DNA of 64,000 nt from Halovenus rubra (GCF_026586665.1 NZ_JAODIY010000011.1:184533-248532); one strand, 5' to 3'. Positions 7,416 through 14,985 are shown, numbered from the stretch's first letter. A program made the numbers and translations. The notes: generated by a model not told the origin, from the letters alone.

Positions 7416-7940
7416 TCACACAGCGACGAGTACAACAACCTTCCCATCAAGTTCTAATTTTCGGATACGGAGTGTTCCGCTTGCAGGTTGCCACTCCGGT
7501 GTCTGATCCCAGAGATTTCTTCGCACCTCACTGACCGCACCGTGCAGGTCAGCTTCAGTGAGTCCAGCAAACTGTGGACGATTTAGTGCCACCGAGGGTG
7601 GTGTTCCATCAAGGAGTGCAAACAGTGCTGCCTGTTTGGTTGTGTTGCTCACGGCAGCAACCGGAGTAATTGGTCCGAACGTGATAGACGCATGTGCAGT
7701 TCCACCACCATTTCGCATCGAGAGTCGAGACATGTCAACCCGAACTTCCTCTGCGTCATGCTCGTAGCTGGCTCCGGCGACCTCCGTACTCCCAGCGACT
7801 CTATCGATGGTGTTAGCCACAGCAGTTGCATCCGGCGGCGGTTGTGTTGGAAGCGAGAGAGCAACACTGGCGATAGCGATTGTCGCAAACGCAACACCGA
7901 GCCACATATACCAGGCGTCAATTGGTGTCTCAAACTCCAT
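7416..7940 (-). CDS. Pilin-like membrane-anchored protein (DUF7283-like)
   Basis: A 174-residue protein with one N-terminal membrane helix (about 12-31, YMWLGVAFATIAIASVALSL) and an outside domain with little charge at its start. It resembles the short haloarchaeal proteins annotated DUF7283, found beside type IV pilus-like genes; that number is from memory. The frame is open upstream to 8102 but ATG 7940 is chosen. A strong TATTTAAA box sits 24-31 bases before it, and the longer form would overlap the previous gene. It is the last gene of the cluster and seems to have its own promoter. Function unknown. Confidence 0.7.
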   Translation of the reverse strand: MEFETPIDAWYMWLGVAFATIAIASVALSLPTQPPPDATAVANTIDRVAGSTEVAGASYEHDAEEVRVDMSRLSMRNGGGTAHASITFGPITPVAAVSNTTKQAALFALLDGTPPSVALNRPQFAGLTEADLHGAVSEVRRNLWDQTPEWQPASGTLRIRKLELDGKVVVLVAV

Positions 7941-7963
7941 ACTGCCATTTGCACGAGGTATCG

Positions 7964-7971
7964 TATTTAAA
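7964..7971 (-). promoter_or_regulatory. TATA box of the DUF7283-like gene
   Basis: TTTAAATA on the minus strand, 24-31 bases before the ATG at 7940. It sits in the 43-base gap after the large secreted protein gene. Confidence 0.5.
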
Positions 7972-7983
7972 AGAGCGGCTCTC

Positions 7984-10900
7984 TCAACCCCCTTTCGTGT
8001 CTTCTGTACAGTTAGCACTGTATGCTGGGTCAATCGCTCCAACAGAGGGGTAGGTTGGCGAACACTCGGGATTCTCACTATCACGGTCACCGACGCCAAC
8101 ACCCGGCGGCGTGATCACGACGAGTACCGACTGACTGTCGAATGTGATTGCATCGACCGAGCCAAGCGTACGTTCCACACCTCCGATTTCATAGCTGACG
8201 GTGTGGTTCTCACGGACGTAGGTGAGTTGTGGTCCGTCAGCAGGCGTCCCGATAGTAGCGGAAACCTCAAAACGGGCATATTCACCCGCAACATCGATTA
8301 CCCACGCGTTCGTGGTTGCGACCCACTGTCCCGGAATTGGCAGGAGTGGTAAGCCTGCCGGAACCCGTGCAGCACGGTTCACTGTTCTATCAGTATTTCC
8401 CAGCCAACGCTCGCCGACAGCTGTACCGATGGCTTCACCTGCACGAGAAACGCGCTCTTTGACGAGATCTGTCGTAGCCGTTCCAAGTGCTGCCTGAATT
8501 CGCTCGTCGATCTTTTTTGCCTGTTTCGCACTGCCAATTTTGACTGAGCGGCCGCTGGCATGGATAACAGACGATCTGACTGCTGCACCGACAAGTGGCG
8601 TCCACTGGCTACTGTTGTATCGTTCCTCAAAAGCGTTGTACTCGTAATACTCCCCATCAGCAAGCTGTCGGGTTACGTTGTCGACAATATACTCCGTCGC
8701 ATTTCCGCTGCCAACCAGTAGTGCTGCAGTCTCAGTATCGTACGGATTGAGCGAATTATTAACGGCGTCTTCGACTGCCACTCTCGCGTCGGTAACGATT
8801 GATTCGAGCCCGTTGTGTTCGGCTGAGTGGTTGTGACATGTCCTTTTCTCTGATGGTCTGTCGACCGTTACTGAACTGGAAAGGAGACACTCAACCGGGG
8901 CGCTTGGATACAATCGTGTGACGGTATGTGTTGCAACCTCCCGGGAAAACGCGTCGAGAGCCTCATTGACATTTGTTTCGAACGCCTTGATATCATGCTC
9001 AAATGTCTCAAGATCAGAAAGATACGTATCCTGTCGGTTCACGTGCTCTGCCTGTTTGTGAGCATCCACAGCGAGCTCTCCGGCCGCAAGAACGTCGCCA
9101 GCCATTCGGAACGTCACTTCCGCATCAGGTGTAGAAGTCCTTCCAAAAATCGCCGCTATTGCTTTTGTGAGTATCCCGTCAATGACCTTGTCATACGGCA
9201 TTTCAACAGCATTCTCGTTTTTTATTGCCATCGGCGCAAACGTGGTACCCTGATCAACCGCTGGTACGCGTTCAGTATCAACTGTCTGTCCCGCACGCAA
9301 ATACGTCGGTGCGCCCGACACCTCATATGAGATACTGTCAGTTAGTTCGGAAGTGGCGAACGCATCCGGATCTGTCTCCTGCTGTTGGATACCTTGTGTG
9401 AGAAATCGGGTAGCATTCCTAAGGGAATTGTCAATCTTTGCGATTCGATTGTCGAGTTCCGAGGTCGCTGTCTCGTGTGCGGCTGCGAGGTCATTTAGAT
9501 GATTGACAAGAGTGAGGTAGTACTGGTACCGCGTTTCGTAGATTACTTTCTCCCCCACGTTTTCGTACGGTTTTCCTTGTTTATCGATGTACCTGTCTTT
9601 GAGTTCTACAGCCACAGCATCGAGCAACTGACTCGTTGGATTACCTGTAACAATCTCTCGTCGTTCGTATTCAGCAGAGATGTTTGCCGCGATTGCCTGT
9701 AAGTCCACGATATCATCGGTCAATTTAGCGGTGAGTTTAAATTCACTGAGGAATTTATCAGGGTCCAGTTCGACAGTTTTGGTTTTTTCAAATACCCGAT
9801 CAGAAGGTGGATACTCCGCGTAGTTGGCCCGCTCCAGCATACTACTGAGCCACTGTTCGTGCGCCCCCGTGTTGATTCCGCCAAAAAATGCTCTCGTCAC
9901 TTCATCTTTTGCCCCATCGTAGTTGTTGAATTTGCCCCACTTCGAAGGACCAGGGTCGTACTTATGCTCAGAGTCAATCTGACTGGATGGGTTCACCTCG
10001 TCTATTTTCGCGGTGGGACTCACTGACTGCTCACCGACTGTCGTACTAATATCAAGGCTATAGCTGTCGGTATCGCGTTTCTGTATCGTCTCATTTGCTC
10101 CCCGTTTGTGACACGTTCGCTGTGCAGTAACAGCCACAGTGACCTGGGAGTCGTACTCGTAGTACTGATTGTCGTCGTGTTTGAGTTCCTCGCGATTCGT
10201 GGTCGTAACGTAGTGCGAGCCCTCTCGGGAAACGGGTCCGCCACGATATGCACGGGTGCAGTCGATATCGAAATCAAGATAGCCCGAAATATCAATATTG
10301 GCGTCGACAGAGCCTTCTATCGTAAATATCCGCTGAATTGCTTTCTCGAAAGACGCATTAGCTGTTGAGTTACGCATCTCGGTCAGCGGGAGGAACGCAC
10401 TCTCCCCGACTTCGATTGTTTTGGTCTCCTGTAACCGGTTTGGCCCGTCAAACAGGTCGGTGACTGTGGGTGTTTGAGGTTTATTATCGGTTGTCTGGGC
10501 AAGCAGTGATTGTGCGCCGTCACAGAGGTTACCGATGCCGCTGGGCGTATCAATTGTCTGGGAGCGGCTGGTTTTGTTCCGAGCTCGTTCAAATGGGAAC
10601 GCAGCGCTGTTTGTGTTATTTTGTTCCCCAGTATACACGTCAGCTGTTGCCTTGCCGTCTTTCAGTGCCATACAGGCCCAACCAAGACGGACCGCATTCT
10701 TGAGATCGGGGTCGGCAGCGCCGAAGACATCTTGCTGGGTTCGATAGAGTGCTGAGTTCGCTGACGGTTCGATATGCCGATTAGCTAACACTTCCGCAAT
10801 TGGAGCCTGATAGTTCTGTGCCCAGCCACGCGCCCAACCAATTGCGTACGTCCGGGCGTTAAACCGCTGTTTGAACCCCTGTTCGGTTACAGCTGCTTTA

Positions 10901-11541
10901 TCGATTGCGTGCTGGTAGGTGGAGACTTTTTTGTGCAGTTCCAAGACCGGTGTGAGAACAGTCACTTCAATAGTCAGCTCGCGCTGTTCAATAACCTCAC
11001 CGGCGTACGTCGCGGTGATTGTGACATTCGAGAGCCTGACTGTAAGCTCGGTCCCATTGTCTGTGATATTGACCCGGCGAATCGCTGCCCCGAATTCGTC
11101 TGGATTGTTGACTGCTGGCAGAGTTACATGTGTCGTCACTTGTCTCTCTTCTTGTCCAGCAATGCCCAAGTCCTGTTTTACTTCCATATAAATAAGGCCC
11201 CGAAGATAATTCTCGAATGGATTGCCCGAAAACGCACCGCTCGACCGGGTAAGTATGTTACCCCACGGAGAATCTGCAGTACTAGTCAACGGTTCCGCCG
11301 CCGCCATCTCAGCTGCCCGCTGTGTACTGTCACGGATAACCGTCTGCATCGTCGCTTCAGTCCGATCAAGAGCAAGGGTCGCGTCTACATCAGTGTCCGG
11401 TTCCGCTCTCGTGTCGATATACCCGACGATGAGCAGACTCGAAATGAGGAGGAACGCACCAATCACCGCTAGTGGGACCATCGCTCGTTCACTGCTTGTC
11501 AACTGCCCGATTTTTCGTGGTATTGAATTATCGTTAGTCAT
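7984..11541 (-). CDS. Very large secreted, membrane-anchored protein (DUF7286-like)
   Basis: An 1185-residue protein with one membrane helix near the N-terminus (about 21-43, AMVPLAVIGAFLLISSLLIV) and the rest predicted outside the cell. The outside part has many N-x-S/T sequons and few cysteines. It matches the pattern of the haloarchaeal DUF7286 family, which accompanies pilus-like clusters; that number is from memory. Its ATG overlaps the stop of the gene before it by 4 bases, so the two are probably translated together. Given its size and context it may be a tip, adhesin or scaffold of a surface structure, but no enzymatic motif supports a specific job. Confidence 0.75.
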   Translation of the reverse strand: MTNDNSIPRKIGQLTSSERAMVPLAVIGAFLLISSLLIVGYIDTRAEPDTDVDATLALDRTEATMQTVIRDSTQRAAEMAAAEPLTSTADSPWGNILTRSSGAFSGNPFENYLRGLIYMEVKQDLGIAGQEERQVTTHVTLPAVNNPDEFGAAIRRVNITDNGTELTVRLSNVTITATYAGEVIEQRELTIEVTVLTPVLELHKKVSTYQHAIDKAAVTEQGFKQRFNARTYAIGWARGWAQNYQAPIAEVLANRHIEPSANSALYRTQQDVFGAADPDLKNAVRLGWACMALKDGKATADVYTGEQNNTNSAAFPFERARNKTSRSQTIDTPSGIGNLCDGAQSLLAQTTDNKPQTPTVTDLFDGPNRLQETKTIEVGESAFLPLTEMRNSTANASFEKAIQRIFTIEGSVDANIDISGYLDFDIDCTRAYRGGPVSREGSHYVTTTNREELKHDDNQYYEYDSQVTVAVTAQRTCHKRGANETIQKRDTDSYSLDISTTVGEQSVSPTAKIDEVNPSSQIDSEHKYDPGPSKWGKFNNYDGAKDEVTRAFFGGINTGAHEQWLSSMLERANYAEYPPSDRVFEKTKTVELDPDKFLSEFKLTAKLTDDIVDLQAIAANISAEYERREIVTGNPTSQLLDAVAVELKDRYIDKQGKPYENVGEKVIYETRYQYYLTLVNHLNDLAAAHETATSELDNRIAKIDNSLRNATRFLTQGIQQQETDPDAFATSELTDSISYEVSGAPTYLRAGQTVDTERVPAVDQGTTFAPMAIKNENAVEMPYDKVIDGILTKAIAAIFGRTSTPDAEVTFRMAGDVLAAGELAVDAHKQAEHVNRQDTYLSDLETFEHDIKAFETNVNEALDAFSREVATHTVTRLYPSAPVECLLSSSVTVDRPSEKRTCHNHSAEHNGLESIVTDARVAVEDAVNNSLNPYDTETAALLVGSGNATEYIVDNVTRQLADGEYYEYNAFEERYNSSQWTPLVGAAVRSSVIHASGRSVKIGSAKQAKKIDERIQAALGTATTDLVKERVSRAGEAIGTAVGERWLGNTDRTVNRAARVPAGLPLLPIPGQWVATTNAWVIDVAGEYARFEVSATIGTPADGPQLTYVRENHTVSYEIGGVERTLGSVDAITFDSQSVLVVITPPGVGVGDRDSENPECSPTYPSVGAIDPAYSANCTEDTKGG

Positions 11542-12470
11542 GTCCAGGTATTGACTGTTAATGTGACAGTTCCTGTTGAGACGTGTTTTGCAGCCTCCAT
11601 CGCGTTTTCATAGCGGTTGCCATGGAGGGACTGAAGCTGTGATTTGAATATCGCTGTGAGACGCTGGCTGAGATACGCGTTCGCAGCGCCAGCATCTGCA
11701 TGAGAGGGGTTGAGCCAATCGTGTTCCGCAAAAACAGACGGGTCACCGTCACTCACTGTTGCCAGCCGCTTGTACCGGTATCGAGTAAGCTGGGAATCGA
11801 CACCGGTTCGCTCTAGCGCTAGCTGTGTTTCACGTTCGGGAAAGTAGCCCGAAATAGTCGCATTAGCGACCGCCCGAGCGACAGCATCGTAGGCCTGTGG
11901 TCCAGTAACTGCCTCGATGGCTGCCTGACGGGCATCAGGTATTCCGCTCGGCACTGCAATTGTTGTCGTGCTCACGTCAGCCCCGGGTGGTGGCTGCTCA
12001 CCCAGCAACGCATCTCCCTGCATCACAGCACCGCCAAACGGTGTCCAAACTGCTGAGACACCCATCTCAAACCGGGAACCGACCAGCCGAGTCTGAAGCG
12101 CCTCCTCAACGGCACGCTCGTAGTCGCCCACCCCCTTCAAGAGCTGTTGCCCGCCAATACTACTGTTTGCCACTGCGATATCCGCAATCAGTGACGCGAC
12201 TGGTTCGTGTGCGACGCGTTCAACGGCGTCGTCATCGGTGGAATTTATCGTCGACTGGGTTTCGTAATGTCGATCCATAGCTGGCAAAAGCGTGTAAGAG
12301 ACGTTCATCGTCGACGCGGCAATGGTTTGAACGCTGTATTCCGTCTGTTGTGGATTATGTTTAGTTGCGTTACCCCCCGCAAAGGCAGCGAGAACACCGA
12401 CCGCGGCGACAACAAGAACAAGCGCCAAGCTCACGTCGGCAACCGTACTAATGCCTCTGTTAGGCCTCAT
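11538..12470 (-). CDS. Pilin-like secreted protein (DUF7284-like)
   Basis: A 310-residue protein opening MRPNRGISTVADVSLALVL, with a hydrophobic helix to about residue 30. This resembles a class III (type IV pilin) signal with possible cleavage after NRG, although the usual Glu is not at the classic place. The body is polar and probably outside the cell. The frame is open far upstream (to 12761), but ATG 12470 gives the pilin-like start and an 11-base overlap with the previous gene. At its 3' end it overlaps the next start by 4 bases, so it is in an operon with the genes on either side. Family number is from memory; function unknown. Confidence 0.75.
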   Translation of the reverse strand: MRPNRGISTVADVSLALVLVVAAVGVLAAFAGGNATKHNPQQTEYSVQTIAASTMNVSYTLLPAMDRHYETQSTINSTDDDAVERVAHEPVASLIADIAVANSSIGGQQLLKGVGDYERAVEEALQTRLVGSRFEMGVSAVWTPFGGAVMQGDALLGEQPPPGADVSTTTIAVPSGIPDARQAAIEAVTGPQAYDAVARAVANATISGYFPERETQLALERTGVDSQLTRYRYKRLATVSDGDPSVFAEHDWLNPSHADAGAANAYLSQRLTAIFKSQLQSLHGNRYENAMEAAKHVSTGTVTLTVNTWT

Positions 12471-12939
12471 CCGAAACCACCACCGTGAGCGTCCCTGGCC
12501 GTATATCGCCGGTCTGATACTGTATCGGAATTGGACGGCTGAACGTCTCGCCGTCTGGAAGAGACATTGTCGATTGAACTGCGCCGTGGTCATCGAACCC
12601 TGCCCGCCCTCTCTCGACGAGATACCCCTGTGGCCCGAGGAATGTAATGTTGACTGTGACATGCTGACCCTGTGGCAGGTCTGTGGGGCCAATTGCTGTC
12701 GACAGGTTGGCATCAGCCGGGTAGATTCCGTCTTCACTGATGGCCTCCCAGATTCGTTCACCAGTTACCTCGGCGAGTTCCCGGTCACTGTGTAGTTCTG
12801 GAACCACTCCCATCACAACGGTCGCATACACTGAAACAGCAAGGCAAAACAGTGAAACGGCGACAAGAGCTGCCAGTGGCTCTGTTTGGCCGCGTCCAAC
12901 CGACTGAGACCGGCTCTTATGTATCTGAGATAGGGCCAT
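12460..12939 (-). CDS. Pilin-like protein (DUF7285-like), first gene of the coupled operon
   Basis: A 159-residue protein with a strong type IV pilin-like N-terminus: SVGRG, then QTEPLAALVAVSLFCLAVSV. Gly-Arg-Gly before the cut and Glu at +3 are as expected for prepilin peptidase PibD substrates. The rest is a small beta-rich outer domain. ATG 12939 is chosen because it puts the pilin motif about 15 residues in; the frame extends upstream to 13188 without family features. TATA-like ACATTTATG lies about 45 bases upstream and an inverted repeat about 80 bases upstream. The downstream gene overlaps it by 11 bases. Confidence 0.72.
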   Translation of the reverse strand: MALSQIHKSRSQSVGRGQTEPLAALVAVSLFCLAVSVYATVVMGVVPELHSDRELAEVTGERIWEAISEDGIYPADANLSTAIGPTDLPQGQHVTVNITFLGPQGYLVERGRAGFDDHGAVQSTMSLPDGETFSRPIPIQYQTGDIRPGTLTVVVSDEA

Positions 12940-13354
12940 CTCGGAACTCAACACGGACTGGTCCCATGTTGGTACATAAATGTAAGTATCGCTGACTATG
13001 CTGGCCGCCACGGACCATTTGCCTGTGACAGGCAAATAGAAGGCACAACAAAGGCCAACAGTATCCAAGTATAGCTTGTTGAGTGGACCTACTCGGACAA
13101 CCAACAAAACTTGATTATCCTCATGTACGCGGCAATAGATAGCGAGCAGTATTGTGGAAATATGCGCACAGTCGCGTCGTTTACCCACAACCCACGTGAG
13201 AGCACAGCGGCTGTCGATGTTCTGTTACCACCGAAACGCAAATAATCTGTGAATGGTCGGCAATGAAGCGGTATAGGCGCAGTACACAGCAGAAGCCACG
13301 CGGATTACCAACCGTCACGAACTTGACAACGCTCTGTAGACACGCCATCCAGAA
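12940..13354. other. Gene-free gap inside the pilus-like cluster
   Basis: These 415 bases separate the DUF7285-like gene from the DUF7311-like gene. No coding frame with family features is seen on either strand. The gap holds a probable minus-strand promoter near 12975 and the inverted repeat at 13017-13037. In clusters of this type known to me, the secretion ATPase and GspF/PilC-like genes would sit about here, so this may be the scar of a deletion. Confidence 0.4.
13017..13037. repeat. Perfect inverted repeat, possible operator
   Basis: ATTTGCCTG, a 3-base centre TGA, then CAGGCAAAT: a 9+9 perfect palindrome in a gene-free gap, about 80 bases before the DUF7285-like start and upstream of its TATA-like box. 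The position suits an activator or repressor site. A hairpin is also possible. Confidence 0.5.
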
Positions 13355-13831
13355 TCACGGTTCGTCCTGCAAGCCAATCCTCACCTGGACAACAGGTTTA
13401 TGCCCACTATCGGAGACGAGTTCGAGAACAAGAGTCAGAGAGGAGCTCCCGCTTATGTCGAGCGTCGCTGTGTCGTCTGCCGCGTTCACGAGCGGGACAT
13501 CGAGGAATACTGTATTAGTCGGTCGTCCATCTATCTTGTATCGAACGGCAGTCCAGTTGGACTCAGTAACCGGTTCAAATCGGAGGGTCTCGATATCTTC
13601 GGTAGTAAATCCGCCAGGCGGAATCTCAATGTCGAGAACACGGCGTGGCGGCGGGATGTCACCCGAAACAGGATCGTCATAGGCCAGCAGTGATACCGCA
13701 GCACGCTCGATATCGGTGATTGCACCCTCGACTTGTGTTTCAGTGCGGACCACAGCAACCTCTTGAACTGCAATGAGCCCGATACCAAGCAATGCTGTCG
13801 TCAACAGGACCGCAAGCACATACCGGATCAT
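13355..13831 (-). CDS. Pseudopilin-like membrane protein (DUF7311-like)
   Basis: A 158-residue protein whose membrane helix starts almost at residue 1 (IRYVLAVLLTTALLGIGLIA), followed by an amphipathic continuation with ETQVEGAITDIERAA, then a beta-rich outer domain. The layout is that of a type IV or type II pseudopilin without a leader. It resembles haloarchaeal DUF7311 proteins, which sit beside type II/IV secretion ATPase genes (family number from memory). Here the next gene in its direction is 415 bases away and is not an ATPase. It diverges from the HerA-like ATPase gene 98 bases away. Confidence 0.68.
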   Translation of the reverse strand: MIRYVLAVLLTTALLGIGLIAVQEVAVVRTETQVEGAITDIERAAVSLLAYDDPVSGDIPPPRRVLDIEIPPGGFTTEDIETLRFEPVTESNWTAVRYKIDGRPTNTVFLDVPLVNAADDTATLDISGSSSLTLVLELVSDSGHKPVVQVRIGLQDEP

Positions 13832-13897
13832 CCAGACAAGGTGGCTTTGCCATCATACCTAAACATCGGGACGACCGTCAGAGCCAGAGCGACCGGA

Positions 13898-13904
13898 TAT
13901 TTAT
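13898..13904 (+). promoter_or_regulatory. TATA box of the HerA-like ATPase gene
   Basis: TATTTAT lies 26-32 bases before the ATG at 13930, fitting a leaderless or nearly leaderless transcript. Confidence 0.5.
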
Positions 13905-13929
13905 CTATCAACGGGCGACCAGCGCCAGC

Positions 13930-14985
13930 ATGGCGTTCGTTATTGGACGAGAGACAAATAGAGACGAGAGCGGACCGACAGGACGACTCGGCAGCTACAG
14001 AGCTCTTGATGGGAGCGACGGTGCGAGTCTTCGTCTTGACGTCGATACCCCCCACGCGATTCTCGTCGTCGGGAAGCGCGGGTACGGCAAGTCGTACACG
14101 CTAGGGGTCATCGCCGAGGAGCTTGCGTGTACAGGGGGTGTTGCACCGATACTGATCGATCCGATGGGAGTATTCGATACACTTACCGACCAGGTCAAAA
14201 GCGAGTCAGTTCCCGCAGAAGTTATCCAGAACCCCACTGTTATGCCAGACGTACTCGACCCGAAGTCGTGGTGCTCGCTGCTCGGGCTTTCTCCCGAAAG
14301 TGGTGCTGGTGGATTGGTCTGGAAGGCTGCACAGGAATCTACAACGGTCGAAGGGATGAAAGCGAACGTCCGCGAGGCGACCGCAGCCGACCGAGACGTT
14401 CGTAGTGCACACAACCATCTGTCACTGGCTGACTCGTGGGATGTCTTCGACAGTGACGGACTGAATGCCGATACCCTTTCAACTGGCAAGGTAACCGTGG
14501 TCGACGTATCGGGCCACGATGACGCACCGATGAATGCAATCTGCCGTGGCGTTGGCAACGCGTTGTACCGGGCTCGTCTCTCAAATACTATCGACCGTCT
14601 TCCTTGGCTACTCGTTGATGAAGCACACGCCTTCTTTGGAGGTGTTGCAAACGAAACATTACAGTTACTTCTCACCCGTGGCCGTGCCCCGGGTGTGAGC
14701 CTTGTCACTGCAACCCAGCGTCCGAGCGCGATTCCAGCAGTTGGGATTTCACAGTCAGATATACTCATTTCCCATCGTCTCACCGCACAGTCTGACCTCG
14801 CAGCACTCGAATCGGCCAAGCCAACCTATTTGCAGGGTGAGTTCGGTGAACGGATGCCAACCACACCAGGGGATGTCGTTATCATCGACGACGCAACAGA
14901 AACTGTACATGGAGCACGGATTCGAAACCGGAAGACATCCCACGGCGGTAAGAGCCCTCGCGCCAGCACCGCAATGCGCAACTGA
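13930..14985 (+). CDS. HerA/FtsK-like P-loop ATPase
   Basis: A 351-residue ATPase of the HerA/VirB4/FtsK superfamily. A Walker A is visible at about residues 51-58 (GKRGYGKS), a Walker B as WLLVDEAHAFFG, and an ATQRPS segment that fits the motif after Walker B in this superfamily. These proteins pump DNA or protein through rings. ATG 13930 is supported by the TATA box upstream; the frame is open to 13792, but that would run into the DUF7311-like gene. The gene diverges from the pilus-like cluster, which suggests but does not prove a shared job. There is no membrane helix. Confidence 0.82.
   Translation: MAFVIGRETNRDESGPTGRLGSYRALDGSDGASLRLDVDTPHAILVVGKRGYGKSYTLGVIAEELACTGGVAPILIDPMGVFDTLTDQVKSESVPAEVIQNPTVMPDVLDPKSWCSLLGLSPESGAGGLVWKAAQESTTVEGMKANVREATAADRDVRSAHNHLSLADSWDVFDSDGLNADTLSTGKVTVVDVSGHDDAPMNAICRGVGNALYRARLSNTIDRLPWLLVDEAHAFFGGVANETLQLLLTRGRAPGVSLVTATQRPSAIPAVGISQSDILISHRLTAQSDLAALESAKPTYLQGEFGERMPTTPGDVVIIDDATETVHGARIRNRKTSHGGKSPRASTAMRN

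Follow-up and report, generated by a model that had tools for sequence, protein, structure and literature searches.

According to the excerpts of two published accounts that we draw on here, subclade 4F is a hybrid group of type IV pili whose ATPase carries a Cys-rich N-terminal domain and which has a unique coiled-coil protein in Halobacteria (Makarova 2016; PMC4858521), and PilB paralogues cross-complement in Haloferax (PMC6491452). In Sulfolobales, the VirB4/HerA-like ATPase CedB, which serves DNA import, works with the Ups type IV pili (PMC9905601). Here we describe a cluster of pilin-like genes, with a divergently oriented HerA-like ATPase gene, in a haloarchaeal assembly (G000, 3.57 Mb in 48 contigs). 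The window is the whole stretch of 64,000 nucleotides that was analysed, G000:C3:184533-248532. An earlier note on this DNA had seen a pilus-like cluster without a motor and offered two explanations: either the motor lies elsewhere, or the HerA-like protein takes its place in a new surface or secretion structure. The cluster is an ordinary split pilus locus of known kind and is not motorless. With a probability of roughly 0.78, the window would hold the pilin and assembly half of a split halobacterial type IV pilus-like system, the motor encoded on contig C34 driving these pilins and the HerA-like ATPase acting as an accessory.

The split operon and its motor

Family hidden Markov models were built for this analysis and about 100 loci were mapped, with Pfam names assigned to the gene order. 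The order common among Halobacteria, found in about 40 genomes, is DUF7310 > DUF7311 > GspE > GspF > DUF7283 > DUF7285 > DUF7284 > DUF7286 > DUF5791 > epimerase; the ATPase and platform genes thus lie between DUF7311 and DUF7285 in intact operons, the position at which the earlier note had suggested looking in relatives. In the window genus the operon is divided into two complementary halves. The motor half stays at the ancestral site as DUF7310 > GspE > GspF > DUF5791 > epimerase (on C34 in G000; L159, L160, L161, L162 and L165 in relatives), and the pilin half is found elsewhere as DUF7311 > DUF7285 > DUF7284 > DUF7286 > DUF7283. In this genus, at least 14 genomes have the two halves apart, and where these share a contig the distance is 423 kb (G001) or 779 kb (G015). 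Contig breaks are ruled out as the cause, given these shared contigs and the position of both halves deep inside contigs in G000. Two members of the genus, G011 and G014, retain the intact order. Other divisions were also mapped: in G020 and G064 the operon is in three pieces (HerA-DUF7310-DUF7311, GspE-GspF-DUF7283-DUF7285 and DUF7284-DUF7286), and in G043, G049, G060 and G089 it is in two. In G001, a zinc-finger gene with DnaJ-like CxxCxGxG repeats (L043 8114-9820) occupies the GspE-GspF position of intact operons, inserted in opposite orientation between DUF7311 and DUF7285. Several GspE genes had seemed to contain internal TGA stops; in the three loci checked, these are natural C-terminal stops.

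The matching GspE-GspF pair of G000 is at C34:83242-86861 (locus L041), with the operon flanks retained. Its GspE (T2SSE E=3.6e-15), encoded in trans to the window, has a Cys-rich N-terminus, CRCQTTFDEEALVIDATDC...CADC, and is adjoined by the gene for a GspF/TadC platform (L041:6240-7946; T2SSF E=3.7e-6). There are six T2SSE matches in G000, five with GspF nearby and a sixth, on C2, that resembles a stand-alone ATPase. The C34 GspE is 47-60% identical to the GspE of intact operons. In the tree it falls inside the cluster-linked GspE clade (63 rows; Shimodaira-Hasegawa-like approximate likelihood ratio test [SH-aLRT] 100), a clade to which none of the four other G000 GspE genes in this tree belongs. 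Moreover, among 116 relatives the DUF7286-positive genomes carry, with few exceptions, one cluster-type GspE and the DUF7286-negative genomes none; GspF of the cluster type is likewise present at about one per DUF7286 genome. G030 and G036 have two cluster-type GspE genes each, and each of these genomes carries two systems. The earlier supposition that the motor lies elsewhere is supported, and the GspE/GspF pair elsewhere in the same genome, which the earlier note had itself named as evidence against a motorless machine, counts against one. Outside the window, G000 also has a further three GspE/GspF loci of type IV pilus-like character, as well as one that resembles an archaellum locus (C5:178000-195999, C3:74000-92000, C1:351000-369000 and C3:152000-170000).

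The two halves differ in ancestry. In the GspE tree, the motors of the window genus group with G011 and other first-type intact operons. In the DUF7284 and DUF7286 trees, the pilin halves of the window genus group instead with a second type, apart from the first type, G011 included, and the two types are split by branches of SH-aLRT 100. Gene order agrees with this placement: among the mapped loci, DUF7283 comes after DUF7286 solely in the window genus and in genus g2, where the second type (G018, G037 and G051) carries its own second-type GspE. Because the motor and pilin trees conflict, the present machine looks chimeric: its pilins are of the second type, whereas its motor would be native. 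Most simply, the native operon would have shed its pilin genes, and a second-type set lacking a motor of its own would have replaced them. Both types can be found together: G036 (L090, L091) and G030 (L085, L113, L174) have a second-type system besides a first-type intact operon, and only one HerA each, located at the second-type one.

Genes of the pilin half

Table 1. Features of the pilin half and the adjoining ATPase gene, in window coordinates
Feature	Coordinates	Strand	Remarks
DUF7283 family protein	7416-7940	-	PF23954 E=1.4e-45; last gene of pilin half; single N-terminal membrane helix
DUF7286, 1185 residues, secreted/membrane-anchored	7984-11541	-	PF23957 E=3.7e-196
DUF7284, pilin-like	11538-12470	-	PF23955 E=2.4e-70; weak Pilin_N E=0.038; prepilin site MRPNRG/ISTV
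DUF7285, pilin-like	12460-12939	-	PF23956 E=6.8e-22; prepilin site GRG/QTEP
415-bp gap	12940-13354		Place of GspE-GspF(-DUF7283) in intact operons
DUF7311, small	13355-13831	-	PF23993 E=8.4e-41; N-terminal membrane helix; first gene of pilin half
HerA/FtsK-superfamily ATPase without HAS-barrel	13930-14985	+	DUF87 E=1.6e-7; divergent from DUF7311

Re-checking of the open reading frames confirmed the genes, their order and the two overlaps reported earlier, of 11 bases between DUF7285 and DUF7284 and of 4 bases between DUF7284 and DUF7286 (Table 1). DUF7283 probably does not overlap; its most likely start is an ATG at 7940, 43 bp past the DUF7286 stop, a start chosen because relatives conserve the beginning MEFEAPVDAWY. 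The absence of GspE and GspF from the cluster likewise holds, and neither a gene nor a recognisable remnant of one was found in the 415-bp gap by tblastn of four families (best E=0.012).

One might take the pilin half of the window genus for a decaying, functionless remnant, with the motor serving other pilins. Such decay has been caught in G110, where everything from GspE to DUF7286 is gone save 57 codons: at L118 (G110:C1:2360000-2379900), DUF7310-DUF7311 are followed directly by these last DUF7286 codons, DUF5791 and the epimerase, and the HerA orthologue (L204) has an in-frame TAG. Against this, all five window genes are open, full length and high-scoring for their families, and the genus has kept the split form in 14 species or more. 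We regard decay of the window half as improbable.

All the short proteins of the cluster had been credited with pilin-like N-termini, a description that stands for DUF7285 and DUF7284. Their prepilin-like sites (RG before QTEP and RG before ISTV, respectively) are conserved, with the FlaFind-like motif kept in 58/65 DUF7285 and 52/60 DUF7284 relatives. Most DUF7286 and DUF7283 relatives lack the motif (present in just 12/57 and 13/63, respectively). The class III signal of prepilin peptidase substrates, that is, the motif plus a hydrophobic stretch, is present in DUF7285 and DUF7284 and absent from most DUF7286 and DUF7283 proteins. By these counts, therefore, two and not five of the window proteins resemble ordinary prepilins. 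DUF7286, DUF7283 and DUF7311 each have an N-terminal membrane helix, which in DUF7286 is the one transmembrane segment, at residues 18-44. The AlphaFold2 model of DUF7286 has a predicted local distance difference test score (pLDDT) of 79, and its fold matches, to helical bundles and SecB-like proteins, are weak; no fold was assigned, the best Z of 6.0 being too low. DUF7286, which Haloferax volcanii also has, is a candidate tip or surface component, and no paper naming it was found in a literature search.

The HerA-like ATPase

The protein encoded divergently from DUF7311 consists of a core of the HerA/FtsK superfamily, about 350 residues long; its Walker A motif reads GKRGYGKS and its Walker B motif LLVDEAH, and the mean column identity is 64% across the alignment of 29 orthologues. 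The protein gave no match to the T2SSE domain at E<=1; its matches are to DUF87/HerA-type and generic P-loop domains only, and its best PDB profile matches are HerA. The AlphaFold2 model (pLDDT 78, predicted template modelling score 0.83) is closest in fold to HerA 4d2i (Z 26.3), followed by VirB4 4ag5 (Z 21.0). Only residues 113-450 of 4d2i are aligned, and about 47 residues precede Walker A, as is similar in the 28 other aligned orthologues; therefore the N-terminal HAS-barrel of true HerA is absent. The neighbours, among which no NurA was found, encode DUF7311, DUF420, a zinc-ribbon membrane protein and, to judge by its sequence, ribosomal protein S12.

Across 391 genomes of the class, with orthologues accepted at E<=1e-35 and the two sets compared by hand, DUF7286 is present in 299 and the HerA orthologue in 283. 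Both occur in 279, DUF7286 only in 20, HerA only in 4 and neither in 88, so that HerA accompanies 279/299 genomes with DUF7286 versus 4/92 without (Fisher p 4e-62, uncorrected for phylogeny). Exceptions include G025 and G034, which have HerA without DUF7286. Within genera, HerA and the operon have been lost jointly in G063 (g2), G039 and G052 (g4) and G074 (g28). Thirteen genomes that lack or are losing the system still have 2-6 T2SSE ATPases; what HerA is linked to is therefore this particular system rather than type IV pili at large.

HerA lies directly before DUF7311 or DUF7310-DUF7311 in ten genomes (G005, G017, G018, G020, G030, G036, G037, G051, G064 and G090) and divergently from DUF7311 in four (G000, G001, G003 and G016); in G018, the HerA-DUF7311 pair is intact about 200 kb from the remaining system genes. 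On the HerA tree, adjacency to DUF7311/DUF7310 needs six changes, at least three of them forced by supported branches, and has therefore changed repeatedly. In 14 of the genomes whose HerA regions were examined, HerA is paired divergently, 88-135 bp away, with a pilin-like gene whose match to DUF7382 is weak (E=5e-6, slightly below the Pfam cut-off); in G110 (L204) this partner is intact. A DUF7382-type gene is present in 79/82 DUF7286-positive versus 3/34 DUF7286-negative genomes. In G000 it is at C36:7079-7492 (L203 7070-7591), away from HerA, whose divergent neighbour it usually is in other genomes, with the highly conserved N-terminus RAIEGLPIRLVIALVVGVA, and the gene adjoining it (L203 6320-7051) resembles the one that adjoins its counterpart in G110 (L204 8369-9130).

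Could the HerA-like ATPase substitute for the missing GspE and power a new surface or secretion structure, as the earlier note had envisaged? The cluster in the window has no other ATPase, and this one stands divergently next to DUF7311 and co-occurs with the system. Indeed, the weaker claim, that it is coupled to the system, is upheld by co-occurrence and recurrent adjacency. The stronger one is not supported: the same orthologue lies beside GspE/GspF-bearing operons in G030, G036, G037, G051 and G090 and, in 29 further genomes (a hand count from coordinates), no more than about 3.5 kb from the cluster-type GspE, and therefore adds to the motor instead of replacing it. Moreover, the motor-bearing genus g10, G049 and G060 do without HerA, and G000 retains the matching motor on C34. 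Substitution for GspE is thus highly improbable.

A different role would be that of a DNA translocase, with the pilus as a DNA-exchange device comparable to CedB and the Ups pili of Sulfolobales. The closest folds, HerA (Z 26) and VirB4 (Z 21), are translocases, the gene is co-inherited with a type IV pilus, and Ups pili plus CedB are a known pairing (PMC9905601). Fold alone, however, is no proof of a DNA substrate, the HAS-barrel is absent, and beside HerA neither a CedA-like channel nor a nuclease was identified, no genome-wide search having been made. We consider DNA exchange unlikely. Tentative too, and less likely than not, is the broader idea that such halobacterial pili work with two ATPases, in that GspE would be joined by a dedicated HerA-like ATPase, often with the divergent DUF7382-type pilin-like protein, perhaps for DNA translocation or filament retraction. 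We know of no PilT established in archaea for filament retraction.

The reading that we prefer, a split system with its motor on C34, can be put as follows. The GspE (PilB/VirB11-type) ATPase and GspF (PilC/TadC) platform would be supplied in trans from the ancestral operon position. Prepilin peptidase would process DUF7285 and DUF7284, probably along with further membrane-anchored subunits such as the large DUF7286, and the C34 motor would assemble the processed pilins into a filament that may serve adhesion or cell-cell contact. The HerA-like protein would be a co-inherited accessory ATPase of the pilus system and not its motor. Several points weigh against this. The C34 motor and the window pilins are linked by complementarity and one-per-genome co-occurrence, and another GspE paralogue of G000 could serve these pilins. 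In G017 (79% complete) the pilin half is present and the motor was not found. The trees are quick searches with SH-aLRT support only. Finally, g10, G049 and G060 have the system without a HerA orthologue, which is therefore not strictly required.

Comparison with known systems

What had looked like a motorless cluster resolves into a split, apparently chimeric operon, a clear case of pilin and motor halves of a type IV pilus that have different ancestries and are yet kept in one genome. The role of the HerA-like ATPase is the more interesting point: it tracks one pilus system through losses across Halobacteria, and may be a second source of energy or have a part in DNA handling. The protein is a real, co-inherited extra partner, apparently undescribed; no mention of it was found in the excerpted accounts of subclade 4F and of Haloferax PilB (PMC4858521, PMC6491452). 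With the HerA-NurA DNA-end-resection helicase it shares the FtsK/HerA ATPase core, but it differs in having no HAS-barrel, in having no NurA among its neighbours and in a distribution that follows the pilus operon. The crenarchaeal Ups pili and Ced, the only published counterpart that we found, likewise pair a type IV pilus with a HerA/VirB4-like ATPase, a likeness that is a lead only; unlike there, the HerA-like gene was not seen to have a Ced channel component next to it, and the pairing here consists of co-inheritance and neighbourhood only.

As far as the excerpts describe it, subclade 4F resembles the present system in its Cys-rich GspE, its GspF/TadC and its prepilin-like proteins (PMC4858521), a likeness of described features; what the GspE tree shows is the clade of cluster-linked GspE. 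DUF7310, a coiled coil encoded upstream of the C34 motor, is a candidate for the intracellular coiled-coil protein of that subclade, arCOG07564. In contrast to subclade 4F as so described, the operon here is split and its pilin half is of another lineage than its motor. The Haloferax PilB3-C3/PilA system, in the same excerpts, differs in its ATPase clade (clade 2) and in its pilins; it is alike in that an ATPase/platform pair acts on pilins encoded elsewhere, as the C34 pair would here, and its paralogues can swap pilin sets (PMC4858521, PMC6491452).

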